A DNA stretch of 64,000 nucleotides from Volvox africanus (Eukaryota > Chlorophyta > Chlorophyceae > Chlamydomonadales > Volvocaceae). The stretch lies in the NCBI GenBank assembly GCA_030268105.1, contig BSDZ01000079.1:2113501-2177500 (forward strand), in the 5' to 3' direction. The position numbers were made by a program, and so were the translations under genes. Of the stretch, positions 12,612 to 62,157 are shown one piece after another; position 1 is the stretch's first letter, and each line of letters opens with the position of its first letter. Under the pieces are notes generated by a model. It did not search any database, was not told where the DNA came from, and saw only the letters and a program-made list of their open reading frames with translations.

Positions 12612-13160
12612 ACTACGTGTTGCCCGGGGAAATGCGAAGCTGTCATCGTGAAAATCTTCTTGGGGAAGTTTCGCAATCCTGCCATGAAGGGGCAGTTGCT
12701 TCATGTTCTGGAACGGGAAGGCCCTGTGCGCTCGTTGGTGCCGAAAGGCCTCGGTCAGGCAGGCTCCTTTGTTGCCACATTGTGGCGGATAGCGTGGCCG
12801 GGACCAGTGCTGGTGGCCGCATCCCTGATTTTGGCTGCTGGCCACGCCCGTACGTGCAAATGGAACTTCGGGTTGTGCTTCTGCGCACTGCCATGGGGCC
12901 GGTGTGTGTCACAGGCCGGCATCTATGCCTGCCGGGACAGTCATTGCCTTGGTATGGTTGAACGTTCGTTTGGCAAACGAGTATATGCGCTTTTGAGGCA
13001 TTTAACAATTGTTTGACATTGTTCGCACGATTAGCCCAATGCTAGCTCGACACACGGCACAACAATTGTAAGCATTGATAAGATGTCGACGTGCTGTGTA
13101 TGCATTTGTTTATCATCATCCCGCAGCACCCCATCCCCCATGCCTTTCGCGTTTCCAACA
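12612..13160. other. 3' UTR and downstream spacer of the OSCP gene
   Basis: GC-rich open frames on both strands occur here, but none has a recognisable motif and the stretch directly follows the OSCP stop codon. TGTAA at 13066-13070 is the likely poly(A) signal. Confidence 0.4.
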
Positions 13161-13169
13161 AATTTTACG

Positions 13170-13280
13170 CGGTACCTTATCGCCGCCACCAGCAGTAAGG
13201 CCACTATATATAATATTACGGATCTTATTTCTGGCTTTTATTTGCGGCCTTGGCGGCTGCCTAGTTTACGTTCTAACGTT
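13170..13280 (+). repeat. dispersed repeat, copy 1 (its relative is at about 31070-31170)
   Basis: The stretch has a block like CCACCAGCAGTAAGGCC, then a variable AT-rich middle, then GCGGCCTTGGCGGC and CCTAGTTT. The same ordered blocks recur near 31070-31170. Each copy lies just 5' of an AT-rich bacterial-like segment. Confidence 0.6.
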
Positions 13281-13634
13281 TTCACCTTCTCTACCTCGGA
13301 AGGAGCTAGATGTCATCCTCCACTATCGCGGTAAGTCGTATTTACAGCAGCATATCAGGCGTCGTTTATTCGTCTTCCCCCTCATGCCGCCGCCGGTGCA
13401 CGTGGGTGCACGTTTGGTTAACGACCATGTGATGTATGTGAACTGGGAACATCTTCCCCCACCCAAACACCTGCGCATACCATTAGCATACCAACAAAAT
13501 TTATGGTTTGTGCCATATCCTAAACATGAAGCCTGTCCTAAGGGGGGGGCATCCATATCGCCCTTACTGTCTATTTGCAAAGTATAAATGGTTTGTCCTG
13601 TGATGCCAATGCATGCACGCAAGCGCCAACACAT

Positions 13635-15245
13635 ACGTAAAATCAAATCCCAGAATGCTCTGTTCTCCTAATGCAGCTTTAAAGAGAAGTTTGTAATGCT
13701 TTAATTTAATTAAATCAAGATAATACTCCATAGAGGAAAGGAAAGGTTTATTGTTTTCTACGGACATAAGAAAGTTATCTAATAAGATAAATTGTAGGGT
13801 TATTTAGATGAAAAATATTTTCTATTATGAACTATTTCATTTGCTTCTGCTCCGGCTTTTTCCTGTGAGTTCTTCCTTCAAGAATGGATAAGTGCCAATT
13901 TCAAGAACTGTACATTTTTCCAATAACATTTCACTTTTTAAGCTTTAAATTTGTTTAGGCCTTACTTTCTTATAATTTAGCTAAATTTTGTTTAAGACTT
14001 ATCTCTTGAAATAAATTTTGCGGGAATAAACTAATTCAGAAGTTAGAATATCTATCAAAAGCGATTTTTCATAAAAATTGTATTATTCATAAAATCCATG
14101 TACAAGGTAACCTCGCTTTAATAAGCCTAAAAGCAGATGCAGAATATATCATTGAAATGAGCGAGGATTTAATTGAAGATTTTTACCATTCCTCTTACCA
14201 TTTGGTCTGAGTGCCTTGGATCAACCCCCAGATTCATAACGACATCTAATGTCTGATCAAATGCAATTTTTTTGCGGCAGATTGGCAGTGTAAACAATTC
14301 TAAATTATCAAAAATAGTGTCAATTTTATATAAAGATATACTGGTACTATCATTGATGTGGATATGTTTTCTTGGACATTATTTGATTATGTTGATGCTA
14401 ATGACAAGCCAGCATTTAATCCTATTAAAGGAATATTAGATTGGCGTTTGATAGAGCCTTTCCAGAATTGTTCCCTTACTTTCTCAAAAGGCAATGATTT
14501 TGTTTTCTTAAATTAAGACTTCCATTTTTTCCTTAATGCTGCTAAAGATATTGTGAAAAGATTATTGGAAGAAGGCAAGGTTGCTGAGTCAATTAAAAGC
14601 CAGGCTAAATCTATTTCAATGAAAAGGGTCAATAAATGGAAAGGATTTTAATCTTAACACTTGCATTATCTCTGGCAGCTTATAGTGAATCAAGCAATTA
14701 AAATCTAGTGGCAAGATAGAACGTGGTAAGCTGCGAATTGAAGTTCAAGATTTAACGTGGAAAAAAACTATATGCTACCTGAAAAGCTACCTTTTGATTA
14801 GATTAGATTACTCTGCATGAAGAAGTTACTATTATTAGGGAAAGATGAGTAATAGAAAAGGCATCAACTAATTGATTTTGTTTTTTCAACAGATAAAAAT
14901 AAAAGTTGGTAAAAGATTCTGGTTGGTAAGTCATCTGGTGCTATCATCCAGTTCACGGTTTCACTTTTTTCCCTAATGTACATTATGGAGATATAGCGCT
15001 CACACTTAACGAAGCTGTTCTTCTCAAGTTTAAAATTTCACCAATTACAGCGCAATTCTAGATTTAATAAAATACTTTTTTCTGACTATGAAATTGCAGC
15101 ATTAGGGCTAGCTTTATTTCAGCCACTTCAGCAACAAGCAAGATTGCTTCTTCTAACTTACCTAAATTTCTCCTCTTTAAAGCAGAAACACCGAATATTA
15201 ATGAATCATCACCATTAGCGTAATTTTCTTTGGTGAGAATTGTTT
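13635..15245. pseudogene. decayed AT-rich island, bacterial-like in composition
   Basis: Base composition drops abruptly to very AT-rich compared with both flanks. Short reading-frame pieces look prokaryotic but are broken by stops. On the plus strand, 14350-14510 reads through [17 protein letters not shown] and GILDWRLIEPFQN, and 14940-15060 reads through HPVHGFTFFPNVHYGDIALT to a stop. On the minus strand, a piece at 15270-15070 contains ALKRRNLGKLEEAI, reminiscent of a TPR helix pair, and one near 13767-13635 contains MEYYLDLIKLKHYKLLF. I cannot assign any piece to a named family. The state of decay suggests old inserted DNA. A degenerate AT-rich transposon is the main alternative. Confidence 0.5.
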
Positions 15246-17880
15246 CTTTATGTTGCGTGAGGGCTACACCAAAAAGTTTCCAAGGAGAGCACCACAAATG
15301 CTACACATAGCAGCACAGTGCTACCCACCACGTTCACAGGGGGGTTTGAAGTTAGCACCTGCAATGTGGTCAATAATGTCATCATACCTACTGGCCCCTG
15401 GCTCGAGACGCTGGCCAGGAGCATCCACACAACAGCATCCTCACCTGGCAGCCCAGCCCCAGTACAGTGTGCAGGCAGCTTGACAACACGGCAAATGCAC
15501 TTGTGAGCTAAGTCAGCACACTGGCACTTGGGACTGTGCCAGAGGGAAGGCGAGCTACCAACATCATGGTAGGCTATGAGTTGGGGTCGGCTCAGCTAGT
15601 ACTAAGGTGGATTGGATGGATAAGAACTGTAACGTGGCTATACTGGGCCAACTAAGGATGTGCCAACTTGCACAGAACTTGGATGTGGACTGCCAAGTGA
15701 CTGCTGGTTTGGGGGCGATTGAGAGTGACCAGGAGAACATGTGTATCAAATTCAAAGAGATGCACTTTAGTATCTGCACTGTGCAGCAATATTGCACTGG
15801 TACTTCAGTTCATGGCATTGGAATACACCCATTATCTCACAGTTCAGTCATCTACTCGAAATATCTTAATAATCGTTCGACAGGATATAGCGCTCTGCCG
15901 CTGAACTCGCTCGCAGCAGTAGAGCGCTGTATCCTGTCTCATTCTTGGCAATATTTATCTCATATACTGCGTGACCCGTCAGTTTACTACTCGATAGCGA
16001 GCCCCTTCCTGCTTGTCCACTCCGCACCGTGCCCTGGCAAGACCTGGCAATGTGGTTCAACCAAATCTCTTTATTGTGGTGCTTCCAAGTGGGACAAATC
16101 TGCTTAGATGGTGTGGACAAGTTGGATGAAGAAAGGGACTCTCCGTTACACTGCTGTCTCCAACCCCACACACGGCGTGGTCGCCCTACTGGTGACCCTA
16201 TTTGTAACAGAGGGGTCGCCTAGCTGTTAGGTGTAGCTATAACGGCGAGCTCCGAGTCATGGTGCCGTAGGGCACGAGGTGTAAGGGTGACTCCGTGTAG
16301 ATTACATTACATTACTATCTTACAATAGAAGAAGAATGTAATTGGAAGTGTCTGACTTAACTATGCGGGCGCATTAAATAGCGCTGCCTGGCACCTTAGG
16401 GGGCCTTACGTCTATTCAAAACTGGCGCGCATTCTACAACTGACACCGTTGTACGAATGCTCGCATGCAAGTGGCCTCATGCGACTTGTCCAAGTTCTGT
16501 GCGTTACATCTATTATAACTAAGCTATTATTACGCAATTATGATATTTGTCATAAAAGCCAAGTTACGACAACTCAGTTTCGCTCTTTCTGGCGCTTCTG
16601 CGCCATTCGCCCTATTACACTATTCCTGACAGGCACATCATCAGATGATGTCCTCCTTCTCCCCTTCACCAACGGCCTCACAGCCAGACCGGCCGTTGAG
16701 TACAAGTAAGTCCGCGTTCACATTAGTGACAAGAAAAGTAGCAGTGGGTACAAGTACGTTGGCACCCTGAAGCCCCCCATCCACTCTGCACCTCCTGTAC
16801 TTTGCCCAGCAGGCACAGCATGCAATGTGCGTCCTTGGCTTCAGCACTGCTTTCTATCTGGTACATTACATGGTGACTAACACCATGATCTTTTTGGTGG
16901 AGCTGAACAATCTCTGGTGCAGTCAGGCGCTAGTGTGGGAAAAATTGTTCTGGCAGCTAGGGGGAGTGTTGTTGGAGAACTTCGGCTATATTGTGAAAGT
17001 GAGCGAAATTGAGGAGCTCATCAAAGCAACAAAGCACTCGTGTCTTTGTTGAGAAAGTCAAGATGGAGGCGATCTTGGAGATTAAGTCTGAAGGCAGGGT
17101 CTTGATTAAGGCAGCTGACATCGTCAGGATTCAGACTGGTGCAGGATTTCGAGTCGCAATATCCCAACGTGAAACCCCAAAACCCCAAGACAGGGAGGAC
17201 GCTCCTGATGGGAACTATACATATGCACATGGAAGCATGTCTCGGAGCAGATGTTAGCTCCCGCGCTCCCGCAAGTCCAGACGGATTTAGTCAGTGCGGT
17301 GCTTGTACCTACAGGACACAGTCAAGAAACCAATTGTTCGTGTTGCCACGTGCGTATGACAAGAACTGGCTAACCAGGAGACCCCTGTGGCTAACCGTGG
17401 CGATCGAAAAGAACGCTCAACGGTTGCATTTATTTAAGCATGGGGTGAAATCCCATACATGTGCAACACTGATTGATGTATGTCGAATGTTGCTGAATCG
17501 ATTGGGATTCAAACAATCGCAACCCTTTGGATGCCACAAACTTGCTATGCCAAAATCTGACTATCTGAGCAAGTCAGCGATGTAACTTATTGAAGTATTC
17601 TTTTATATTGGCAATAATTTCTTTTTATTTTTCGTGTGCGATGCTTTGTATCTTTGCACAAACCCACTTTGCAACTGTCTTGGCTGGATCGTGGGATCGT
17701 TCAGACAGAAACCTTGGGATGTTAGCAATTATCATATAAATATTAAATCCATACATGATTAAAATTGCAAATATTAACCTGCATCTGCTGGCTTCCAGCA
17801 GGGCCGAATATGTTTCAACCGCCGCGACAATAGCTCCCAAGGAGAAGGCCTCAAATTCCTTTGCTTATACAAATCGTTCC
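15246..17880. other. repeat-rich spacer, no gene recognised
   Basis: Several ORFs of 60-170 codons occur on both strands, but none shows a recognisable motif and the longest (15607-16107) overlaps a dispersed repeat. The stretch may contain eroded transposon sequence. Confidence 0.35.
15745..15985 (+). repeat. dispersed hairpin repeat, copy 1
   Basis: This segment recurs in reverse orientation at about 21170-21440. Shared blocks include CTGCACTGTGCAGCAATATT, CAGTCATCTACTCGAAATAT, TTCTTGGCAATATTTATCTC and an internal hairpin. The hairpin arms here are 15880-15896 and 15921-15937, 17 bp each with one mismatch, reading ACAGGATATAGCGCTCT on the left. It looks like a non-autonomous foldback or MITE-type element. 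Confidence 0.75.
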
Positions 17881-24835: not shown

Positions 24836-26920
24836 AAGGACTAAGTTTTACCATGTACATGTACGTGTAGGCACGTAGCTATCTGGATAGTTCCCTACAT
24901 GGTCCATGTTATATTCCTGCTGCCTTTCATTCACTCATTTACGCATTCCCGATTGTATGTTTGGATAATTCCCATCTCCTTAGCTGGTTCGATTCATACG
25001 ACCATACACACTTTGCGTGATTCGTACGCAGCACGCAGCAGCATGGTGCAGCAAGGCACATAAACGGATAAGCTGCACAGGAAATAACATTATATTATTT
25101 ATCTATTTGTCTAGGTGGTCATGCATGCACCACTATCAGTGCGGCGCGTACAACACCACGCCTGGAATATCTGCGATAGTCATCGACTTAGGCATGCCGC
25201 CCACCACCACGGTGCGCCCGCCCTCGTCGTCAACAACCTCGCCCGGCGCGTGGTTGTGGCCATGATGGCCGCCGTGCTCTGCATGAACCACGTGAACAAC
25301 TCCCCCGGCGGGTCATCCGGAATGTCGGACTGCATGAACGGCGCAGCCTTGTTCACTGGGAAGCCGCCCGCGCGGATCTGTGGATGGGACAAACACCCAT
25401 ACACATACTATTTGAAAGTAAAGCGCCCCCCCCTCGAGGTATTGTATTACTTCTTTCTTCCTTCTCATCCTTATACCTGTATCGCTCATCCTCGCTCAAC
25501 ACACACACACATCCACTCATGCAGCCTTGCTTCGCTTCCCCTCATATCGGACACACAAAATGCATGATGCTTGCTTGGGGCCACATTGGACAGTCCCTTT
25601 TACTACCGTGCGATAGATTTGCTTGACCATTGGAGATATAGCTTGCATTGGGCGAGAAGCAAAACGCAAATTAAGAATACATGTGTTATCCTTCTTTTTA
25701 ATTTTCCAAATACTATAGCACAGCTTTGGATAGTACATATGATAAGAATTCACATATAAGATATTATATTCTATCTATGCGAATAAGTGAAAGGATTTGC
25801 ATGGCGCGCCCAGGCACACAAAGTTTGTTATCAACTTACTAAGCTGCTTCCCAGAGGAGCCCCAGTATTGCCATCGTACATGACCATAATGTACGACAAT
25901 AGCGACGACAAAAAACAAAGGATACATGGTAAGAAAAATTATACTAAAAGAAAATTAAAATAATAAAATATACGATTAATATGCCAGGTTTCTAAAGAGG
26001 TAGCAACGACGCAGTCGTGCTTGCCCTGTTGCACACGCATGCACGTTGTCACGACACAACACGTAGCCTGCACAGCGGTCAAGAGATCGATCACGCAGTG
26101 TGTTGTACAATATACAACGTAGCCGATTTGTAACTCCCTCACTGGCTTGTTTCTCGATCGATTGTGCGAGCCATCCCCCTAATAATGGTTCTTCTTTGTC
26201 GCCGCAAAACGGTTAGTTTATCTAATAACAATTTGCGTGATGCGTGATCTATCTAGCTTCCCAACGAGCTACCTATCGATCTAGCTACCCGCATCATCTA
26301 TCCAGTCGATTTGCGTCTGCCCTGCCAAAATTATGAAGAAGAGCGAGCTCTAACTTACGTACAACTATTACTGGGCAATCAATCGCGTGCTATATATGTA
26401 TAGAGTACGTAGGTGCTACCGGCGTTTTAGACCCCGCTGGGTGCTTTTGAGTGCTACGTATCAGCCTAGCTTAGTTCCAGCTGGCTGGCTGAGTGAGTGC
26501 GTCTCTCGTAGATATGTATTTGTGATTATGAATCACTAATGTACGGCGGTGATTATGTAGCTCCAATCATTTTCATTTTCAGGGGTACGGTTTATAAATG
26601 GTAAACGTTCCACGTGTAACCTTGAATGTGCACGTGCATCCTGCGGCAAGTAGATTGATTGATTGATGTAAAAGTGTTGATGGATATGTTTATTTGGTTG
26701 TAGCGGGCTGCATGCGGCTGTGAGTAATTGAAACAAGCAATAAGTAATAAGCGCAAGTTGTTTGAACACACCGGAACACATGGATGAATGATCGAAGGTT
26801 GGGATGCATCAGCAGCTGTGCATGAGCCATGTTGTGCATGAGCCATATATGTCTACATACATGTCGACAAAAGTTGAATGATGGTGGATGATGATGTCGT
26901 TGGGTGGTTGTTCGGAAAGA
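24836..26920. other. spacer, no gene recognised
   Basis: Low-complexity and AT-rich sequence with many short GATCGAT-like and CTAGCTA-like words. A minus-strand open frame at 25180-25404 (it includes PDDPPGELFTWFMQ) might be an isolated exon, but has no partner exon or known motif. Confidence 0.35.
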
Positions 26921-30100: not shown

Positions 30101-30634
30101 AAGGCAGACGAGGCGAGAAAATCCATGGGGACGGAAGTTGGGTTTGCTGTTGATGACGTCATCATCAACTGCCTGACTTACCACCAGCCATACACCATGT
30201 CTTACTTAGGCACATGCATAAGGAAATGCCTTTTTGGGCCTAAAGCACGCAGGTCCCTATCTATCAGCATAAAGCCACGGGAAGCCTAGGAGCCCTACTT
30301 ATCACACCCAAAGCACCGTGAGCCAATCTAACTGAGTGTTGTGGCATCTTAGAAGAAGCAAATGGAAATCAAACGAAGTTAATTTTGTATTTGAGACTTT
30401 ATTACCTAAAGATGGTAGGCCTAGTTAGGAACTGTAAGGTGAAGTGACCAGGCGTAGTGGTGAAACGCCTGGATATTGGAAAGACTCCGAGCTTTTGAGG
30501 GTAACCCCCGAAGTGAGGAGACACTGAGCCCGTACAGAAGTCGTTTCGGCCTCCTAAGCAATAAGAGCATTTAATGCCCTTGGGAGGAAGCAAGGAAGAT
30601 AGAGAACTTTTAGATTGAAGCCTTAGGTTGACGG
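27152..30634. other. repeat-rich spacer, no gene recognised
   Basis: The stretch contains pyrimidine-rich runs (about 28730-28810), GGTAGGTAGCTAGGTAGGT near 29060 and many scattered short ORFs. A minus-strand ORF at 29646-29957 contains a hydrophobic stretch (WGLAYVIGSLFLVQSG) and could be an exon, but nothing supports it further. Confidence 0.35.
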
Positions 30635-30670
30635 GTCGTAACCGTCGTAACCGTCGTAACCGTCGTAACC
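30635..30670 (+). repeat. 9-bp tandem repeat, four perfect copies
   Basis: The unit GTCGTAACC is repeated four times without change. A (CTCCCC)n run follows at about 30790-30818. Confidence 0.9.
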
Positions 30671-31069
30671 GATTTTGCAACATACAAGTCAACCTTCCCT
30701 TATGGATTCAAGAGCAAGACGCTCTAACACTGCGTGAGTCTCCGGTCACCGGAATTCCCGACTCCAAAACCCTAAGGTTAAAAACGACACGCTCCCCCTC
30801 CCCCTCCCCCTCCCCCTGCTGACTGCTGACTGCATGTCCACATCTTTGCTGTTTGCTTCGGTTCCGCCGCCGCCGCCATAGGTGAGTTCGCGTGGGTCCG
30901 CGTTTCGTTCGGTTGGTTCGCGCGCGCGGTCGTCGTGCTAGCCCGGGTCGGGTTGGTGGGTCGGTCGGGTCAAGGCGCGTTAGTTTGATGCTATACAGGG
31001 GGGTTGGGAGGAGCACGCGCATGACAGCGACCAGCGGTCAGCTTAGTTTTTCTTCTTCTCCGCGGTTTT

Positions 31070-31170
31070 CTTTCTCCGCCAGCAGCAAGGCCGATAGTAT
31101 ACTTTATGACGGTTTCGATTGAGTTTTCTCTACTTTTATTCGCGGCCTTGGCGGCAACCTAGTTTTCTTG
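31070..31170 (+). repeat. dispersed repeat, copy 2 (its relative is at 13170-13280)
   Basis: GCCAGCAGCAAGGCC, then an AT-rich middle, then CGCGGCCTTGGCGGC and CCTAGTTTT. The copy ends about 40 bp before the composition switches to the bacterial island. Confidence 0.6.
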
Positions 31171-31233
31171 GGTCTTCGCGTCGGCAGCAGCCTTGCACGC
31201 GGACAATCATTAAGAATTGAAGGGAGACGAATA

Positions 31234-31365
31234 TTATTTTATCCACTTACCCCCTATTTTCTGAACTTTCATCCTACCAGCTTTTATATAATTATAAAGG
31301 GTCCTTTCCGTAACACCTAAAATCTTAATGGCTTCCTTTAATGAATATACTTTAATGTCTAACAT
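31234..31365 (-). CDS. excisionase-family helix-turn-helix protein
   Basis: A 43-aa ORF with the typical excisionase/HTH_17 layout: VYSLKEAIKILGVTERTLYN is the helix-turn-helix and KVQKIGGKWIK the wing. Family members bind DNA at attachment sites of phages and integrative elements or regulate such elements. It is shorter than usual family members and stops right after the wing, close to the island edge, so it may be truncated. It lies downstream of the IS element on the same strand. Confidence 0.7.
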   Translation of the reverse strand: MLDIKVYSLKEAIKILGVTERTLYNYIKAGRMKVQKIGGKWIK

Positions 31366-31429
31366 GCTAAAATCCCTCTTATATAAAACTTATATAAAAC
31401 TGAACCACCCTCAGCTTAGAGCTGAGGGG

Positions 31430-32275
31430 TTATAATGTGGAGTCAATTTGAAATTCACCTAGCTCCATCGGTTCACCTTCTTGTTCCTCTATATACCTTT
31501 GTATTAGCTCATCCGTTATATTTCCTGAACTAATTGCCATATACCCTCTTGCCCACAAATGCCTTCCCCAAAATTGTTTTCTAAGATTAGCGTATTCCTG
31601 CAAATAAAATTCTGGAACTACCACCTTTCAAATATTGCACTAACTTACTAAGCGCTAACTGTGGTCTGTATGATAAAAACATGTGAACATGGTCAGCTGC
31701 TACTTTCCCTGAAACAATTTGTACCTCATGTTCCATGCAAATTTGCCTCAGTATATGTTGTATCTCTGTTGTGTCGGCCAACAAAGGCCCGATCGGAAGG
31801 ATGACCATCTAAGGTCCAGGATCCTTTGACACTGCCCGTAGATACCCCAGGATACTACAAGTATTCCCCCTCAGATAGGGTGCGTCCTCGCATCCTACAG
31901 CCTAAGGGCCAGCCCTCACCCTAGTCTGTAGTCAGACGATTCGATCCCTCACGGCCTGGTGACGGTTTCCCAAGCCATCTACCAGTCAGAACCGCCCTCA
32001 CCATCCCGTAGGTGGGGGGATTCGAACCCGGACAACCTGCTCGATACCAATGTTGTATCTCTGTTGTGTCGGCCAACAAAGGCCCGATCGGAAGGATGAC
32101 CATCTAAGGTCCAGGATCCTTTGACACTGCCCGTAGATACCCCAGGATACTACAGTATATCTCTTGTCCTTTCGGCTATTCCTCCTGTTAAACACCTCTT
32201 CCTATATTTTGGTATCCATATTAGATGCACTTTTAAGTCATACTTGCTGTCGCTATTACTTCTATAATTTCTCAT
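31430..32275 (-). pseudogene. tnpA: IS200-type Y1 transposase tnpA, broken by a retroelement and a frameshift
   Basis: The N-terminal part (32275 to about 32155) starts MRNYRSNSDSKYDLKVHLIW and reaches GGIAERTRDI. The gene is then split by the TRIM element at 31756-32154. It resumes with LRQICMEHEVQIVSG and the HUH metal-binding region DHVHMFLSY, then LSKLVQYLKGGSSRIL. A one-base insertion near 31625 shifts the frame. The C-terminal part (RKQFWGRHLWARGYMAISSG, NITDELIQRYIEEQ) carries the expected Tyr and ends at TAA 31430-31432. Removing the insertion and one GTATA copy leaves the coding sequence continuous. The enzyme normally moves single-stranded IS DNA; this copy cannot be functional. Confidence 0.92.
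31756..32154 (-). mobile_element. TRIM (terminal-repeat retrotransposon in miniature), 399 bp, complete
   Basis: Two 104-bp direct repeats (31756-31859 and 32051-32154) are identical base for base by my reading, and each begins TG and ends CA. The internal region is 191 bp with no ORF of interest. Read on the minus strand, the base next to the 5' LTR is followed by TGGTATCGAGC, close to the initiator-methionine tRNA primer-binding site TGGTATCAGAGC. A purine tract GAGGGGGAA lies just before the 3' LTR. The target duplication GTATA flanks it at 31751-31755 and 32155-32159. The element is non-autonomous and needs enzymes supplied by a larger LTR element. Confidence 0.93.
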
Positions 32276-32359
32276 CCCTTGCTCTTCGTCGTTGGCACGA
32301 CTTCAGTTTATCTTCCCTTCGCCTGAAAGGCGAGGGATTTTATATCCCCGAGGGGGACA

Positions 32360-34115
32360 TTAAAAAATTGCATTGGCAATCAATTCTTCACTTCTATTCT
32401 TTGCCCTGTCTATGTGATGCAAGTAAATCATGGTAGTATTTATGTTGGTGTGTCATGTTAGTAATTATATTTACTGCGAATATAACTTACCTAACGAATT
32501 AGGTAAGTTTTTTTCTGATTTAAGTGAAGAGCTGGCAGATATTGATGGAGCAGTTAAGGCGTTACAGGATGGAGAAAGAGTAGTGCATATCCATACAAAT
32601 GTTATTTTAAAGGGCAAAAAGAAAAGGTCAAACCAGCCTCCAAAAGATACGCTGGGATGCTGCGCCGTAATGGTTGGAATTTCATACCGACAAAATATGA
32701 TCATTTAGCGCATGTATTAACTGCAATGCCCATGAGTATGGTTGAAGAAGAAATGGGATTATTTAAAAACAACATAACAGGCGCTGGGGTAGCACTAAGT
32801 ATTATAGGTCGTGGCAAACAAACAGTTTCGGGTGAGAGCAAAGCCATTCATCGGTGAATATAAAGGCGATTTAAATGCTCCCGGTTTATTACTTACCGGC
32901 CGGAGAGGGCAGTTAAAATTCTTTTCGCAGTTCGGAGGTGATTTTACCCCGCATTTGGCAACAAATACCGGTAATCTTGGCAATCCTAATGTTGTTATCG
33001 TAGGTGTTACAGGAAGTGGAAAATCGGTATTAATGCAAGAAATGATGTTATCTACGCTTGGTGTTGGTGGCAAGGTTTTTGTCGTAGATTACGGCAAAAG
33101 TTTTGAGAAACTTTGCCATGTGCTTGATGGAAACTATATCGAGTTTGATCCGAGCAATCCAATTTCGATAAATCCTTTTTCCGGAGTGCCTACCGGTGAT
33201 GATGAAGTTTCCAGCGCAGCAAGAGCTGATTTTCTAGCAAGCTTTCCAATAACTCTTGCTACGATGGCTGCTCCAAAACACGGAACAACTGATTTACAAC
33301 AAACAAATCTGGAAGAGGCTTTAAGAAAATGTTGGGATGAAAAAGGAGGTGATTTGCTAATTGATGACATAGCTGATTGGTTGCTTGTACAAGAGAATAA
33401 TCCTGTAGCAAATGATTTGGGACGGATGTTGTTCAACTATACAAAAAATGGTGCATACGGTGGATTCTTCCAAGGTAAAGCAGAAGTAACATTGGATGCG
33501 GATATTGTAGTTATTGAAACTGATCATTTGCGGAACTTTCCTGATTTAATGGCGGTTGTGACGCAAATAATGATGACCCACATTAACAATAAAATGGCTA
33601 AGGGAAAAACGGACAGGCCAAGTCTTTTGGTGTTTGATGAAATTACCAAGACTTTGGAAAATCCAACTGCTTTAAAGTTTGTTTCAGCGGTTATCAGGAT
33701 TGTAAGAAAATATAAAACTTCAGTGGTATTAGCTTCGCAGTTAATTACAGATTTTCATGATTTAGGAAAAGAAGCTATGAGTATTTTTGCAGGTGCTGAT
33801 TTTAAGCTGATAATGAAACAGAATCCAGACACATTAACTACTATGCGAAGTTTGCCGTTATTTCAGAGTTATGTTAAGGATGACGAGCGGATGCGCAGGA
33901 TGGGATCGATAGAATCCAAAAAAGGAGAATATGGAGAGTTTGCGCTGTGAGCACCCGGTATTAATGGGGATATTTGCCAATTAAGAATAGATCCGTTCAC
34001 ATTGCTTTTAATGACTACCAATCCAACTGAAAAGGAATTAATCAAAAATCATCGGGAGAGTGGCTTAAGCCTAGCAGAAGCGATTAATACCATATTAGCA
34101 GAAAGGGGTCTTTAA
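32360..34115 (+). pseudogene. traC: traC, F-type conjugation ATPase (VirB4 family), broken
   Basis: TraC is the VirB4-type ATPase that powers pilus assembly and conjugative DNA transfer at the inner membrane. Recognisable sequence starts near 32480 with LGKFFSDLSEELADIDGAV and runs through ALQDGERVVHIHTNVILKG. The frame changes near 32625 and again near 32815, so a segment of about 190 bp is read in another frame. The rest is continuous: Walker A GVTGSGKSVLMQ, VFVVDYGKSFEKL, Walker B region PSLLVFDEITKTLEN and LASQLITDFHDLGKEAMSIF. A TGA at 33948-33950 interrupts the last 55 codons, which end at TAA overlapping the traW ATG (TAATG). The N-terminal part is missing, cut off at the IS end. Two frame changes and one stop make it a pseudogene. 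Confidence 0.9.
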
Positions 34116-34807
34116 TGTTGATAATACCATTCTCAAAAGCAGACCTTACCTCGAAGGTATTAAAAACATTCCTGCTAGTAGGAACCGGTATATTAATTAA
34201 CAATGGAGCTAGCGCAAGAGGCTCAGGCATTCCAAGGGAAAAAACTAATTCCAAACCAATAATAAAAGATTATGGCACGCATGGACAAGTTTTTAACATA
34301 GCCGAGGAATGTCTTCTTGAGGAAATTATGAGCAGATTGGAGCTTGCAAAAGAGGATGGAACACTGGACCTGTTACAGAATGAATTTATCGAAAAAGTAA
34401 AAGCCAGAGTACTTCGCCCATTACCAGTTCCAAACTTAACAAAAGCGACTATTAATAGAAGCTGGACATATAACCCAACTTTCACTCAAGAAGCCGATAT
34501 TGTCGATGATAAGGGTAGGGTGATTGTTGCAGCTGGAACAAGTATAAATGCGCTTGCAAAGTTAAAATGGGGTGAGCCATTAATTTTAATTGATGGTGAT
34601 GATCAAGAGCAAGTGGAGTGGGCAAAAGGAAAAACCGGCAAGATTGTTTTAACTAATGGTGCGCCTATGCTAGTTGCAAAGCAATTAAAACGTCCGGTGT
34701 TTTTTGATCAAGGTGGGATACTTTGTCATCGTTTTAAAATAGAGGCAATTCCTGCTATGGTTGAGCAAGACGGCTTGTTGTTAAAGTTAAGTGAGGTGAG
34801 TATATGA
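34115..34807 (+). CDS. traW: TraW, F-type conjugation pilus-assembly protein
   Basis: TraW is a periplasmic protein needed for F-pilus assembly. The ORF of 230 aa is intact. It has an N-terminal hydrophobic export signal (VLKTFLLVGTGILINNGASA), then a helical region and the family core PLPVPNLTKATINRSWTYNP. PLILIDGDDQEQVEWAKG and RPVFFDQGGILCHRFKIEAI follow. A purine-rich AAAGGGG lies just upstream of the ATG at 34115, a good bacterial ribosome binding site. The start overlaps the traC stop (TAATG) and the stop overlaps the traU start (ATGA), which is typical of translational coupling. The frame is free of stops although the neighbouring traC is broken. Confidence 0.9.
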   Translation: MLIIPFSKADLTSKVLKTFLLVGTGILINNGASARGSGIPREKTNSKPIIKDYGTHGQVFNIAEECLLEEIMSRLELAKEDGTLDLLQNEFIEKVKARVLRPLPVPNLTKATINRSWTYNPTFTQEADIVDDKGRVIVAAGTSINALAKLKWGEPLILIDGDDQEQVEWAKGKTGKIVLTNGAPMLVAKQLKRPVFFDQGGILCHRFKIEAIPAMVEQDGLLLKLSEVSI

Positions 34808-35838
34808 TTATCTCCTCTCAACAACAGGAAAATCTTAAAATCACAAAAAAGCAGTGGGTGCTAGGCTTTTTAAGCATAATAATAATTTTTATATGCAATC
34901 AACCGCCCAAGGTAAATGCCGGAATAGGATGTACCGGAAAGTTTATCAATCCTATTACTGATGTATGCTGGAGCTGTTTATTTCCAATTACTCTTATTGG
35001 GATTGAAATAGTTGGAGGGGATGGTTTTGATACTAAAACTACCAAAGACCCTATTTGTTTTTGTTCAAGGCCCGGGATACCTGTGCCGGTGCCGGGAATT
35101 CCTGTTGGATTCTGGGAGCCGGTGCGTCTTGTTGATGTGACCAAATCGCCTATGTGTATGGTTAGTCTGGGGGGAATTTCACTTGGAACTAGTCCGCAAA
35201 AAGGCTTTAAGAGCGATGAAGGAACGGCTTTCTATCATGTTCATTGGTACATCTACCCTGTTCTTTATTGGCTTGAGATCCTGCTTGATTTTATTTGTAT
35301 AGAAGCAGCGGCGGTTGATGTTGCTTATTTGACTGAATTTGATCCTATGTGGGGAGATGATGTTAAGACAAGCATATTAAATCCGGAAGCTTTGTTGTTT
35401 GCTGCAAATCCTTTAACAACAGCTTCATGCGTGGCTGATTGCCTAACCTCAAGTACTGGTTTGTCAAATGATTATATGTTTTGGTGCGCCGGTTGTCAGG
35501 GTTGTATTTATCCATTTTCCGGAACTACCTCTTATCACAATGGGGGAGTCGGCACGGCTCAGCTGGTGGTTTCCAAATTCATGGCAAAGATGCATAGGGA
35601 GCTAATGCTCTGGGGTTATTATGGCAAAGAGGGTATGTGCGGAAAATATCCAATGCCGATTATCAAGAAAAGTCAGTATCGTTTGCAGATGACTTATCCA
35701 ATTCCTGAAATGAGTTCTTGCAAACGTATCGGTCAAACGGAAGTGTTGTGGCAAGCCGGACGAGAATTTCCGGTATGGGGTGAGGATTTTAGTTTCTTGA
35801 TATGGCGCAAGCGAGATTGCTGCGTGCGGGCGATGTGA
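34804..35838 (+). CDS. traU: TraU, F-type conjugation protein
   Basis: TraU is an exported protein required for DNA transfer and pilus assembly in F-type systems. The ORF encodes 344 aa, near the F plasmid TraU length of about 330. The N-terminus has a signal peptide (WVLGFLSIIIIFICNQPPKV, then NA before GIGCTG). Many cysteines follow, as in the family: CTGKFINPITDVCWSCLFPI, DPICFCSRPG, ASCVADCLTSS, MFWCAGCQGCIYPF. The C-terminus EDFSFLIWRKRDCC matches the family end, so the protein looks complete. It starts four bases before the traW stop codon ends. In bacterial operons trbC/traN would follow; here the island ends within a few bases. Confidence 0.93.
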   Translation: MIISSQQQENLKITKKQWVLGFLSIIIIFICNQPPKVNAGIGCTGKFINPITDVCWSCLFPITLIGIEIVGGDGFDTKTTKDPICFCSRPGIPVPVPGIPVGFWEPVRLVDVTKSPMCMVSLGGISLGTSPQKGFKSDEGTAFYHVHWYIYPVLYWLEILLDFICIEAAAVDVAYLTEFDPMWGDDVKTSILNPEALLFAANPLTTASCVADCLTSSTGLSNDYMFWCAGCQGCIYPFSGTTSYHNGGVGTAQLVVSKFMAKMHRELMLWGYYGKEGMCGKYPMPIIKKSQYRLQMTYPIPEMSSCKRIGQTEVLWQAGREFPVWGEDFSFLIWRKRDCCVRAM

Positions 35839-36044
35839 AAGTCGTCTATGTGATTGTTTAACGGCGAAAGCTGATTAAACCTGTTGTTCTACCAACAGTA
35901 GCCTACCGGTACATGCATTGGAGTGATCCTTTGTATGAAGCTATCGGGACAATGTATTCGGCACGAAAGAGGATCCAAGCCGTGAGGCGAAGATTAATAG
36001 TATCCCTTCATTCTCAGAACAATATAGGATCATTAAACAGTCAG
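35839..36044. other. junction between the bacterial island and the 3' end of the cyclase gene
   Basis: Only about 200 bp separate the traU stop from the guanylate cyclase stop codon on the opposite strand. I see no TTACA (TGTAA on the minus strand) in this stretch, so the cyclase transcript may end with a different signal or run into the island. Confidence 0.5.
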
Positions 36045-39000
36045 TCATGCTTCACGGTTAGTCCTGGCTTCGTCAGAGATTATTACCAGCCATTCGATGT
36101 TCGTCTCCCTCCCCTTCCCGCGCACCTCCACGCCCCCTGTGGGCTCCCAGGGCTCGTTTGGCGTCAGATCGCGTGTGGCCTGGCTGACGTGTATTGCCCC
36201 CGGCATCCCCGTGCTCTCCATGCGGGAGGCGGTGTTGATGGTGTCCCCGAAGAGACAGAACCGCGGCATGCGGGTGCCCACCACGCCGCTCATGGCGGGG
36301 CCGCTGTGGATGCCCACCCGCAGGCGCACGGGCTCGCCTGTGCTGGGCAGGCGGACGGCGCTGGCGGCATGGAGGAGCGCCTGGGACAAGGGAACAGGAA
36401 GGGGAGGAGATGGGCCGAGTTGGGGATTGGGTGGGCGAGTTGCGCTTGTACGGAATTTACGAATGAGAATTGCTGGGCAGTGCATCATCTACCGTGGGTT
36501 ACCTTATATTACCCGCTTCCATCATCACAACCTCAGCGCAGATACTCAAAGAAATCTGGTCTGCCTCACCCTTCTCCTGTCCCTCGTTCCCTCACCTTGG
36601 CGAACTGCACGGTGCGGTGCGCGTGCTGTGGGTCCACATCATCCGACCGCACCGTCACCGCGCCCGTCTCCTCGTCCACCTTCATAAGGCCCCCCGCCAC
36701 CATGTAGCAGTCCCCGATGGTTTCCACCTTGTACACCCCGAACGCGTCCAACATGGCATCCAGCCGGGTGAACAGGTCGTTGAGGAAGGACATGACGGTG
36801 GCGGGCTTCACGGAATTGCACATCGTGGTGAAACCCTGGATAGGGGGAAGCGAGGGGGGAAGCGAGGGGGGAAGCGGCTAACGAAATGAGGGCCAGGCGG
36901 CTTCCTGGGGTTTAGGGTACCCCATTTTCTCTACTTTGAAAGCGCGCTCTCACACACACGCACCCTCCTCCTCCCACTCCCTACCTGTATGTCACAGAAC
37001 AGCACCGTGAGAGCGCTGTGGGAGGTGGCAAGATGCAGGAAAGTGTCGCCCGTAATGTGCAGCACGGGCGGTTCTGGTGGCTGATGTTCTCTTCTGCGAC
37101 TGACCGCCCTGGCAGCTAGGCAGGGCACCGGTCCGCCACCGAGTGCGTTGGCTGGCAACATCGAAGGCGTGGTCGTGAGCCCGGCGGCCTCCGCTGCCTC
37201 GTATGCGGCCGCCGTCAGGCCCTTAAGCGTTGGCCTTTGAGGCAATGAACCACCACCGCATTCAGTGTCAGCCTCGTCCCCTCCCGCTGCCGCAGCCATG
37301 ATGGCGATATGCTCGAGGACTGCCAGATACGGGGCGTAGGGACAAAAGAAATATCATCAGCTGGTCGACCTGGCCTCCTGTTTAGTTGCCTGTTTGATTC
37401 ATGCACCTGTTAGTCACCGCTATCGAAGTTCCCAGTCCGTGCGAAAAGGCGAGCGGACCCCCTTGGGCTGTCCATGTGTGTTGCCTCTCCCCTCCTCCCC
37501 TCCTCCCCTCTCCTTGTACCGTGTGCAGGAAATATGGCTTCCAACAGCGCGTGCTCCGCCTCCATCACTCGGGCCAATTGCTGCTCGGCCCATACACGGG
37601 CGGATACGTCGTGCTGCGGAGAAGAAAGAAAGGTGTGGTGGTTTAAGTTTAGGACAAGAAGCAAGGACGGGCGGAGACGGGACAGCGTTGGCGGTAAGGA
37701 ACACGGGGAAGGCGGTGGATGTTCAACAGTCCAGGGTTGCGGCTTCCACGGTATGGAATAGCCAAAAAAGGGGTAGGGATATTTCGCTCTCCCACTTTCC
37801 TTCAGGTGGTCAGTACCGCTCGCCAGTACCGCGGTCCAACACCCTTCATACACCTGCACTCAACACGTTCTGCATAACCTCCAGCATCGCGGATCACGCT
37901 TCCTATAAAGGTGAAGCCGCTGGTGCCCCACCCATGGCCCCTTTTTGTATCTCTGTATGTCATATCCGCCTACATGCAGCAAAGGCCCGAGAGATCGGGA
38001 GATGTCCACCGGATAGACAGACACGGTCCATCTATCCCGCATACGTACCATCCCTGCCTAGACATCCTAACCCATCACCTGCCTGAGTCACCATGATAAG
38101 CTGCTCGCCAGTGTTGGGGTGACGCATACAGCTTACAACCACCTCGTGCCAGATCTCCATGACTGCGCTACCGCCGGCGCCGTGGCCGCCGACCGACGGC
38201 CGCATCGGCGACGTGGGCGACTGAGGCGGGATTCGCGGCAATGGCGGCGCAGTGATAGGGCCCTCCGGAGCCCCAGTGCTGCCTTCCTGGACTGATGACA
38301 GTGCTCGGCCCGTGAAGGCTAGCGATCCCCCCAGCTTCGGCGACACAAACCCCGCCGCCGTGAAGGTGCCTTGGGACCGGTGGGAGGCGCGCCAACCCCA
38401 TGCTGATGCTTGGGGCGGCAATTCCACGCCGCCGTCGGGATGCATCATCCGGGCCTCCTCAGCCGCCGCCGCCGCGGCCGCCGCCGCTGCGAATAAAGCA
38501 GCTCCCCCAAAAACGGAATTTTCTTCAGCTGACCCTCCATCTGGAGATGTAGGTGTTTCTGACAGAAGTGGTTTCGGTGCCAGGCTAGCGGCGGTAGGAG
38601 CGATGGTCGCCGGCTGCGGCATAAAGGTAATTCGCTCTCCAGATGGGCTTTGACTTGTCAGCCATTCACCGCAGCCGCCACCGCTGCCGCCATCACTACC
38701 CAGACTGCCACCAACGTCGCCGCTGCCGCCGCCGTTATCATTATCGCCACCCCGGCTTCCACGAATCCCGCCGCCGCCACCACGGCTGCTAGGGCCACTG
38801 CTCCGAATGGTGTCAAGGACACCGGAAGCGCATGTGTCTGCACGCTGCGCAGGTGTTAGTGAAGTTTCCACACACGGATTCAATTCAATCGACACGTGTC
38901 AGTCCACATGGCAAGGAGTAACGAGAGATGCGCTGACACTGAATATTTTAAGCTTGCTGCCACAAGTGGTATTCCTTAATCCCATCAATGTGGCCATAAC

Positions 39001-59637: not shown

Positions 59638-62157
59638 TTCTCACGACGTCGAGTGCTATGAGCTGGCAGTGCTACTCAATCTGCCACGATGTGCGGGCCT
59701 CGTCCTGGTACGTCGTACATGGAACCCTTAAATTGGGCAGGCCGTGATGTAGCGGGTTGCGACTAGTCACCTAGTCACGTAGTCACCTAGTCATAACAAG
59801 CCTGTCATCATGCCTGCACCAATTTAATACATATATTGCGCCGCACCGGGGCGGGGTGCTGTACGCATTTCCTGGGTCCTCTCGACATCAACCTTATCAA
59901 CGACCTCAGCCATGCATGCCACGAAACGGTATCCTTCTTGCCGTACATTACATGACATGATAACACATTACAATACATTACCAGTACGATTGCATGCTTC
60001 CATCAGGTTGAGGTTCAATGGAATGGTCAGCCCGGTCACGTAGTGCCGCTCATATCTATTTCGGCCGACGATGCCGCTGTGGCGTCAGAGCTACAGAGCC
60101 TCGCGGACGCCGTGGCGGCGGTGGCGGCGCCGTCATCGACTGCACCGAACACCGATGCCGCCGTCACGCTGAACGCTGCGTTTGCACGGCGCCGGCAGCA
60201 GTTTCTTGATAGTTTCCTGCTAGATACTGGCGTGTGGGCAGCAGCAGCAGCAGCAGCGCAGTCGCAAATGCCGCCGCTGGGTGGCCCCCACGCCGCGCAG
60301 GCCTGCAACAGCCCTGCGGTGCAGCACCAGCAGCTACACCCCCGGCAGCGGGCGCGGCTGGGCACGAACTTGCTACGGTTCGCTATGCACTCGGGACTTA
60401 GGGCGACGGAGGCTTGGTTGATGCAAGGATTGGCGGAGCTGGAGCTGGACCTAGCGGATGTGGAGGCGCGTGGAAAGTGCGTGGGAATGGATGGAAGTGC
60501 AACCGCAGCATGTAATGGAGCAGTTTTTGCGACAGCAGCAGCTGGGGCAGCAACTGGGGCGACGGCTGGTTGCGGAAATCCTAAGGCGATCAACGTCGAT
60601 CCATCATGCCGCGTATCGGCGCCGGCGTCGGCGTCTTCACTGGCGTCGAGCACGACGGCGGCTGAGCTGCTGCCAACGGCGCATGCTGAGGGTTCCTGCG
60701 GTAGCCTTAGCGACGGCGGAGCCGCCAAGGCCGCCAAAATCGACGAAAGAGCTAAGAATGAAAATGATACGAATGAAAATGAGTGCGACCTTCGGCGCCG
60801 CCATTTGCACACAACATACATTAGCGACGGCGCCGACGGGCGGACTGTGCCATCGGCGGCTAACACGCCAACTAGACACCTGTGCGACACACAGACTAGC
60901 GGCTGCCCATCGTCGGTTATCCGAGGATTAAATACTGTGCGTCAAGTTCTCTCACCAGCGCCGGCGGCGGCAGAGAAGGTTGCGGAAAGCACTCAGTGTA
61001 GTGGTTGGGCTGATTGGCGGCAGGCACTGTTTCAAGTGCTGAAAGGTCGCTCTGTGAAGTCCTCAGAGGAGGAGGAGTACCGGGCGTATGCGGCGCACTG
61101 GACTATCAATCAGGAGCATGTCATGTGGGTGACTCGTTGGGTCGTAACTGCAACGCGCGAAAGTCCGCATCCGAGCAGCAGTCCTGTCTGGTGCCGATGG
61201 TAGTAATTGCGGCGCGGGTAGTAATTGCAGCATTAACGCGTAACCCACACTAAGCCATCGAGGGACCAAATACACCGTGTGACACGGGGACTCCTGTTTT
61301 AAGAAACGCACGGGGTTTGCGCACGACGTACACGGCTAAACGTTATATGCATTTACATTTACATTTACATTTACATTTACATTTACATTTACATTTACAT
61401 TTACATTTACATTTACATTTACATTTACATTTACATTTACATTTACATTTACATTTACATTTACATTTACACACATACACACATACACACATACACACAT
61501 ACACACATACACACATACACACATACACACATACACGCATGCACATTCTTGCGAAGAGGGGCAAGGAACGGAAAAGCGGACTGGTCTTGAATTGCCCTCA
61601 CCTCAAGCCTTCGGGCCAACTAACTAACTAGATGCAATCTAACCGAACGAAATCCACCCTGACCAAAACGTTTCTCCCCCTCGCGCCACTCTCCCCCCCT
61701 TGCAGTCAAACCTTTGAGGTTTTAGCGCTGCTGACGTGGCTCTTCCGCGCTCGAGCCGATGCACTCAACCCCGTCGACGTCACGGCGCTGCTGGGCGGCG
61801 TCCCTGGACTTGCCTCCCTGGCGGCGTACCTGCAGCTTCCGAGAAGCGCCTGGCAGCGTGTGGTAGTGGCGGTGAAGGTACCCCGCTTCGTGACGTACAT
61901 GACCGCGAAGGCGCTGTCATTGGTGTTGAACGTGCCGCTGCCGCCGGGTATGAGCTCCTCCCAGCTTGGTAAATGCATGGTGCTACACGAAGGACTGCTG
62001 CTGCCGTTGGCTTGCCTGGTAGGTAATGACTGGTGCGGAAAGGTGCTGTGTGGGTTGGGGGGGGTGAACAAAAACGTCTTCTTCGATGCGGGTTGTGTGT
62101 CTGTGTCTGTGTCTGTGTCTGTGTCTGTGTCTGTGTCTGTGCATGTGTATGTGCGTA

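Follow-up and report, generated by a model that had tools for sequence, protein, structure and literature searches.

How has a cluster of genes for bacterial F-type conjugation come to lie between the genes of a green alga, and is this DNA really part of the algal nucleus? The question is raised by a stretch of 64,000 nucleotides from Volvox africanus (assembly GCA_030268105.1, contig BSDZ01000079.1), hereafter the window, which covers positions 2,113,501-2,177,500 of a contig of 6,217,339 bp (C76). Within it a bacterial block of about 4.6 kb (31.21-35.84 kb), the island, is flanked by algal genes and carries, in bacterial order, an open reading frame (ORF) with an HTH_17 domain, a broken IS200 transposase gene, and traC, traW and traU. 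The bacterial parts of the island have a G+C content (GC) of 0.36-0.42, as compared to 0.55 and 0.64 in the flanks (30600-31209 and 36091-36700). We consider the island to be a relic of endosymbiont-to-host DNA transfer, with a probability of about 0.92. The features that concern this reading are, in window positions:

31433..31754, minus strand: 3' part of tnpA (IS200-type; PF01797, E 7.1e-15; NF033573, 59.2 bits, cut-off 55)
31751..31755: left copy of the target-site duplication GTATA (5 bp)
31756..32154: miniature retroelement of the long terminal repeat (LTR) type, TRIM-like, 399 bp (repeat detection, LTR identity)
32155..32159: right copy of the target-site duplication GTATA (5 bp)
32156..32275, minus strand: 5' part of tnpA, separated from the rest by the LTR-type element (translation; N-terminus assigned by eye)
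32478..34115, plus strand: traC remnant (tblastn with the TraC proteins of genome loci L050 and L049; TIGR02746, E 7.5e-88)
34115..34807, plus strand: traW, open frame of 230 amino acids (aa), overlapping the traC stop (TIGR02743, E 3.6e-51)
34804..35838, plus strand: traU, open frame of 344 aa, overlapping the traW stop (PF06834, E 5.8e-108)

The nuclear location of the island is supported by the presence of a multicopy element with a 5-bp duplication in it, and by its place 2.1 Mb into a 6.2-Mb contig on which bacterial and host genes are contiguous. Thus, the claim of the first-pass annotation that bacterial F-type conjugation genes reside in an algal chromosome holds. The LTRs of the 399-bp element (31756-31859 and 32051-32154) are identical, measure 104 bp each, have TG...CA ends and enclose 191 nt. 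When the genome was searched with the element and 40 of 970 candidates were scored, at least 46 matches were obtained, distributed over 24 contigs. Exact 5-bp duplications were found in seven of the ten copies that were fetched, the island copy included; the exceptions are one copy on C22 and a pair of overlapping copies on C100. Short identical LTRs ending in TG/CA, a 5-bp duplication, many copies and no space for a coding region are the traits of what we take to be a terminal-repeat retrotransposon in miniature (TRIM), with the tRNA primer-binding site and polypurine tract judged by eye alone. LTR-type elements like this one are eukaryotic, and since it lies inside the IS200 gene, its insertion postdates the arrival of the bacterial DNA in the alga. 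An IS200-type element had been recognized earlier, and the transposase family is indeed present, but the gene is broken (its 3' part has a frame change near 31600-31612) and the LTR-type element inside it had been overlooked. Host mobile DNA is also inserted in bacterial sequence on contig C36, in the form of a copia element that is described below.

A step in GC and a bacterial operon order could also be expected from an assembly chimera, in which bacterial reads, from an endosymbiont or a contaminant, had been assembled into algal contigs. Living rickettsiae do occur in some Volvox strains (PMC4324946). However, a chimera does not explain a genome-wide element with a clean target duplication inside a bacterial gene, nor the copia element similarly placed on C36; moreover, traC was already broken and tra pieces are present on several large contigs. 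It is the retroelement insertions with their target duplications, and not reads, that lead us to rule out chimerism and contamination, which we consider extremely improbable. The published assembly of V. africanus TH, the strain that best fits the host, was based on approximately 197x PacBio and 166x Illumina data, and its authors filtered out bacterial-looking contigs (PMC10291315), so a symbiont may still have been present in the strain. Filters on bacterial similarity fail to remove DNA such as that of the island, or to distinguish it from contamination. In genome searches, no full-length continuous 16S gene was present among six partial matches to a 16S model (5 of 3062 candidates scored), murB gave no match, and the nine matches to dnaA were weak and all under the cut-off. 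The DnaA-model matches on C36 (at 50.8, 350.4 and 381.3 kb) were rejected as dnaA for their weakness (30-37 bits); our guess is that these are IS21-type ATPases.

The products of the three tra genes belong to the TraC, TraW and TraU families, and the genes are arranged in the operon order of F-type conjugation systems, including the Rickettsiales amplified genetic element (RAGE). This order was correctly described in the first-pass annotation, as were the start/stop overlaps (TAATG at 34113 and ATGA at 34804), but traC is a truncated gene with a broken frame. It lacks approximately the first 277 codons, since homology to the TraC of L050 starts at residue 278 of 829, and tblastn with this protein reveals two frame changes and one in-frame TGA. 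The score of the 379-aa traC ORF with TIGR02746 is far below the full-length cut-off because the C-terminal part of TraC alone remains. TraW scores slightly below the TIGR02743 cut-off (173.8 versus 174.75 bits) and gave no Pfam match at E 0.01, and TraU reaches 312.4 bits with the NCBIfam model (cut-off 298). When the window was compared by tblastx to 12 Rickettsiales loci, matches were found at 32478-34133 and 34208-35879, and the island is collinear with the tra clusters of L049, L050 and L053. The F-type clusters or RAGE of Rickettsiales share the order traC-traW-traU and the protein families (PMC9098888; PMC10732058), whereas the island has three tra genes, one of them broken, no integrase or relaxase that could be seen, and a eukaryotic chromosome as its surroundings; a complete transfer apparatus with relaxase and integrase was not found in it. 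Since one of the three genes is broken, the other components of the apparatus are missing here and the structure is that of a bacterial operon, the island would presumably not function as a conjugation system.

While traC and tnpA are broken, the frames of traW and traU are open from start to stop, as is a traH frame of 371 aa on contig C16. The proteins encoded by traU, traW or both might thus have been domesticated and be used by the alga. Judging from the sequence, this seems highly unlikely: the genes have no intron, their GC is bacterial, their starts and stops overlap, no sign of an algal promoter was sought or found, and the second large copy of traU (C36:332521-333393) contains two stops.

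That Rickettsiales were the donor had been proposed in the first-pass annotation as an inference, together with protein searches and trees for TraU, TraW and TraC. All three families were matched as indicated above, and a TraU tree agrees with the proposed donor. For TraU, 2134 relatives were found at E <=0.001; the top one is 96% identical over 311 columns, and the 120 best were considered. The tree has 43 rows: 24 come from the 120 listed proteins and 17 from the 72 genome loci, and the remaining two are the window protein and a C36 copy. In this tree, the window TraU pairs with P0001 (100/99) and then joins P0002-P0005 in a set of six rows (100/98), P0001-P0005 being unlabelled metagenome proteins. 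The enclosing group of 20 rows (99/95) includes three rows from named genomes (L049, L050 and L053), all three carrying a Rickettsiales or Rickettsiaceae label. In a larger starred set, of 29 rows, Holosporaceae and Paracaedibacteraceae are included as well, with the Rickettsia and Orientia rows outside it under midpoint rooting. This placement makes it likely that the donor belonged to the Rickettsiales, the genus being left unassigned by the tree. The published 'Ca. Megaira' tra plasmid was not among the 72 genome loci or the 15 plasmid rows listed, so a Megaira donor is not demonstrated.

F-type systems pass between lineages, no label is available for the closest relatives (P0001-P0005), and Paracaedibacteraceae and Holosporaceae rows occur in the 29-row set, which leaves some room for another alphaproteobacterium with a similar plasmid as the donor. 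This is very unlikely in view of the identities of TraU, which are 67-76% to L049-L056 and L058 but, among the rows listed, only 44-48% to plasmids of free-living alphaproteobacteria, and in view of the low-GC chromosomal genes other than tra genes that are present in the C36 region. A plasmid collection yielded at least 5000 records matching TraU, all with less than 60% identity, of which the 15 listed are from free-living alphaproteobacteria; these are uninformative on the donor. The 96% identical P0001, from an unlabelled contig of 1,650 bp, is without 18 mid-protein residues that are present in the window TraU.

Rickettsial DNA is also found on contig C36, which was read at 60-200, 274-284 and 313-343 kb, with 151 of 180 one-kb bins having a GC below 0.45. 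Tandemly repeated units with rickettsial genes, about 11.3 or 4.43 kb long, recur over C36:66850-252103 (loci L009-L021 and L028) and are present on contig C69 as well. With a 6-kb unit probe and 29 of 106 candidates scored, at least 55 matches were obtained, of which 31 measure at least 1.9 kb (24 on C36 and 7 on C69); 12 of these long matches span almost the entire probe. Nine C36 copies start at intervals of 11.1-11.7 kb and nine more at intervals of 4.43 kb; among the matches listed (80 of 249), unit copies are 98.8-99.9% alike. The units carry genes for cytochrome b561, PCuAC, a split PrmC and an IS701 transposase, a TruA piece, and TraW and TraU pieces, the latter overlapped by a 125-bp tandem repeat that occurs in 2 to 5 copies at each of the 11 places found. 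Neighbours of the array on C36 are a Der GTPase gene, a HemD-like ORF, and TrbC and TraN pieces; four of the ten C36 ORFs scanned were without a match in NCBIfam.

The copia element (RVT_2, rve, gag) is located at C36:180,710-185,581, by its coordinates inside a copy of traW. Its LTRs have one mismatch in 303 positions, its target duplication is ATAAT, and relatives were found on at least eight contigs, C36 and C69 among them (20 of 639 candidates scored). Because this host element with its target duplication was inserted in a traW copy, the array on C36 is nuclear. LINE-like (long interspersed nuclear element) ORFs with RVT_1 and endonuclease domains are present at 313-323 kb, and positions 60,798-60,857 are occupied by a short run of TTTTAGGG, a motif that also fills the start of contig C19. 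Contig C69 runs collinear with part of C36, shifted by about 169.27 kb; it may represent a duplicate made in assembly. On contig C88, two groups of copia copies (58075-68513 and 84105-100398) each show a constant spacing of 5,855 bp, as if the element and its flank had been amplified in tandem.

Smaller pieces are dispersed over the genome. A search with TraU gave 50 matches, mostly on C36 and C69; on C20 it found a short piece (30 aa, 83% identical) and on C24 a weak match. TraC pieces occur on C20 (1,074,651-1,074,974) and C15 (2,029,554-2,029,757), the C20 copy having 84% DNA identity over 544 bp and containing stops, and the single TraH match (C16, 2,054,226-2,055,191; 148.8 bits) corresponds to the open frame mentioned above, which is without an internal stop. 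In the TraU tree, the C36 protein joins P0017 (99/89) and P0010 (100/100), apart from the window TraU. These separate lineages imply either that DNA was captured twice or that a single donor had two elements. We consider it probable that the nuclear genome repeatedly acquired Rickettsiales DNA, of at least two tra lineages, that one capture was amplified in tandem to at least about 185 kb of C36 and colonised by host copia and LINE-like elements, and that the traC-traW-traU cluster on C76 is a dispersed piece. Short stretches that are 83-97% similar to the IS200 region were noticed at C77:1316202-1316290, C113:1401444-1401532, C11:283919-283966, C15:2147748-2147806 and C3:5723712-5723744, and are possibly further bacterial insertions.

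Concerning the route of transfer, an endosymbiosis in this lineage would have provided the DNA. After lysis or degradation of the rickettsial endosymbiont, fragments may have been captured by end joining at a chromosome break, for the island one adjoining a guanylate-cyclase gene. Some captured pieces have decayed and others have been amplified, probably by unequal exchange or a similar process, and algal retroelements have landed in them. An active role of the bacterium, which might itself have injected DNA by conjugation or effector secretion, can be envisaged since TraU, TraC and TraH were each matched in the genome and all three are of types belonging to self-transfer systems. However, C36 contains genes that are ordinary constituents of a rickettsial chromosome (Der GTPase, PrmC, TruA, cytochrome b561 and PCuAC), as passive capture predicts, and tra elements are so numerous in some Rickettsiales (PMC10732058) that a random sample would contain them. 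Furthermore, neither a relaxase nor an origin of transfer (oriT) or element end could be recognized at the edge of the island. Injection is therefore very unlikely, and passive capture is the route that we prefer.

Some observations weigh against the interpretation of the island as a relic of endosymbiont DNA. The junction segment at 35839-36090 is without an assigned origin, and intact frames of traW and traU are unusual for old relics, although they would fit a recent capture. The evidence for integration consists of assembled sequence instead of reads, and because bacterial-looking contigs were filtered (PMC10291315), a missing endosymbiont genome says little about the living strain.

The kind of event described here is already known. 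A rickettsial murB-ddlB-16S insertion in the nucleus of V. carteri f. nagariensis EVE was published in 2015; it covers about 9 kb in one synteny region, with the genes 16S, murB, ddlB and ftsQ (PMC4324946). That region likewise consists of Rickettsiales DNA in a Volvox nucleus, accompanied by host multicopy and transposon-like sequences, and the donor was lost from the strain (PMC4324946). It holds other genes in a single region, whereas V. africanus has conjugation genes at several loci and a tandem array. A term search of the available portion of the same paper found no mention of conjugation genes or V. africanus. In the first-pass annotation, part of a mobile conjugation system fixed in a nuclear genome was called unusual. 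This needs to be softened, as rickettsial DNA in Volvox as such has been known from V. carteri since 2015; of tra genes and an array, no report was found in the literature searched (few subscription journals covered). In the same literature, 'Volvox africanus' and 'rickettsia' occurred together only within a reference list, and the words 'rickettsia', 'endosymbiont' and 'horizontal' do not occur in the main text of PMC10291315.

The findings extend endosymbiont-to-nucleus transfer in volvocine algae from the single 9-kb region of V. carteri to a second Volvox, in which conjugation genes and a number of loci are concerned, and link it to tandem amplification and retroelement invasion. Wolbachia DNA in chromosome 4 of Drosophila ananassae is also endosymbiont DNA that is present in the nucleus in many near-identical copies, there as whole genomes that make up about 5 Mb and more than 2% of the fly genome (PMC4299567). 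In V. africanus, a green alga instead of an animal, the units measure 11.3 and 4.43 kb and extend over about 185 kb. Repeated uptake and the amplified C36 region would, if true, be an algal counterpart of the Wolbachia amplification in this fly. Published assemblies exist for V. carteri, V. reticuliferus and V. africanus JP, which makes it possible to date the insertions by whether they are present in these relatives and to trace their decay.

The remaining features of the island are located at its edges:

31237..31365, minus strand: small ORF of 43 aa with an HTH_17 (MerR/excisionase-like) domain (PF12728, E 1.1e-9); the left edge of the island is near 31210
35839..36090: right boundary zone, GC 0.42-0.49; the stop of a cyclase ORF lies near 36045

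The first of these is the excisionase-like helix-turn-helix protein predicted in the first-pass annotation, and the AT-rich block of 4.6 kb between algal genes was also correctly perceived, as the GC step and the flanking genes indicate. The left part of the island (31210-31754) has a GC of 0.358, and nine of the 64 one-kb bins of the window are below 0.45. The algal surroundings include a guanylate-cyclase domain in two exons (36.05-36.82 kb) and a WD40 gene (49.4-50.4 kb), an exon of which is 86% identical to V. africanus Vafri_8467 and at most 60% identical to other named volvocine proteins among the matches listed. This match and the lack of a murB match speak against V. carteri EVE as the host, and at 86% identity the JP strain of V. 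africanus is unlikely as well. The last guanylate-cyclase ORF enters the lower-GC zone and stops within it (36045-36090), so the insertion may have altered the end of this protein. A second AT-rich stretch, with a GC down to 0.32, is present at 13000-15500; in the tblastx comparison with the 12 Rickettsiales loci no match was found at 13.0-15.5 kb, and a short match to one of these loci occurred at 26696-26860.

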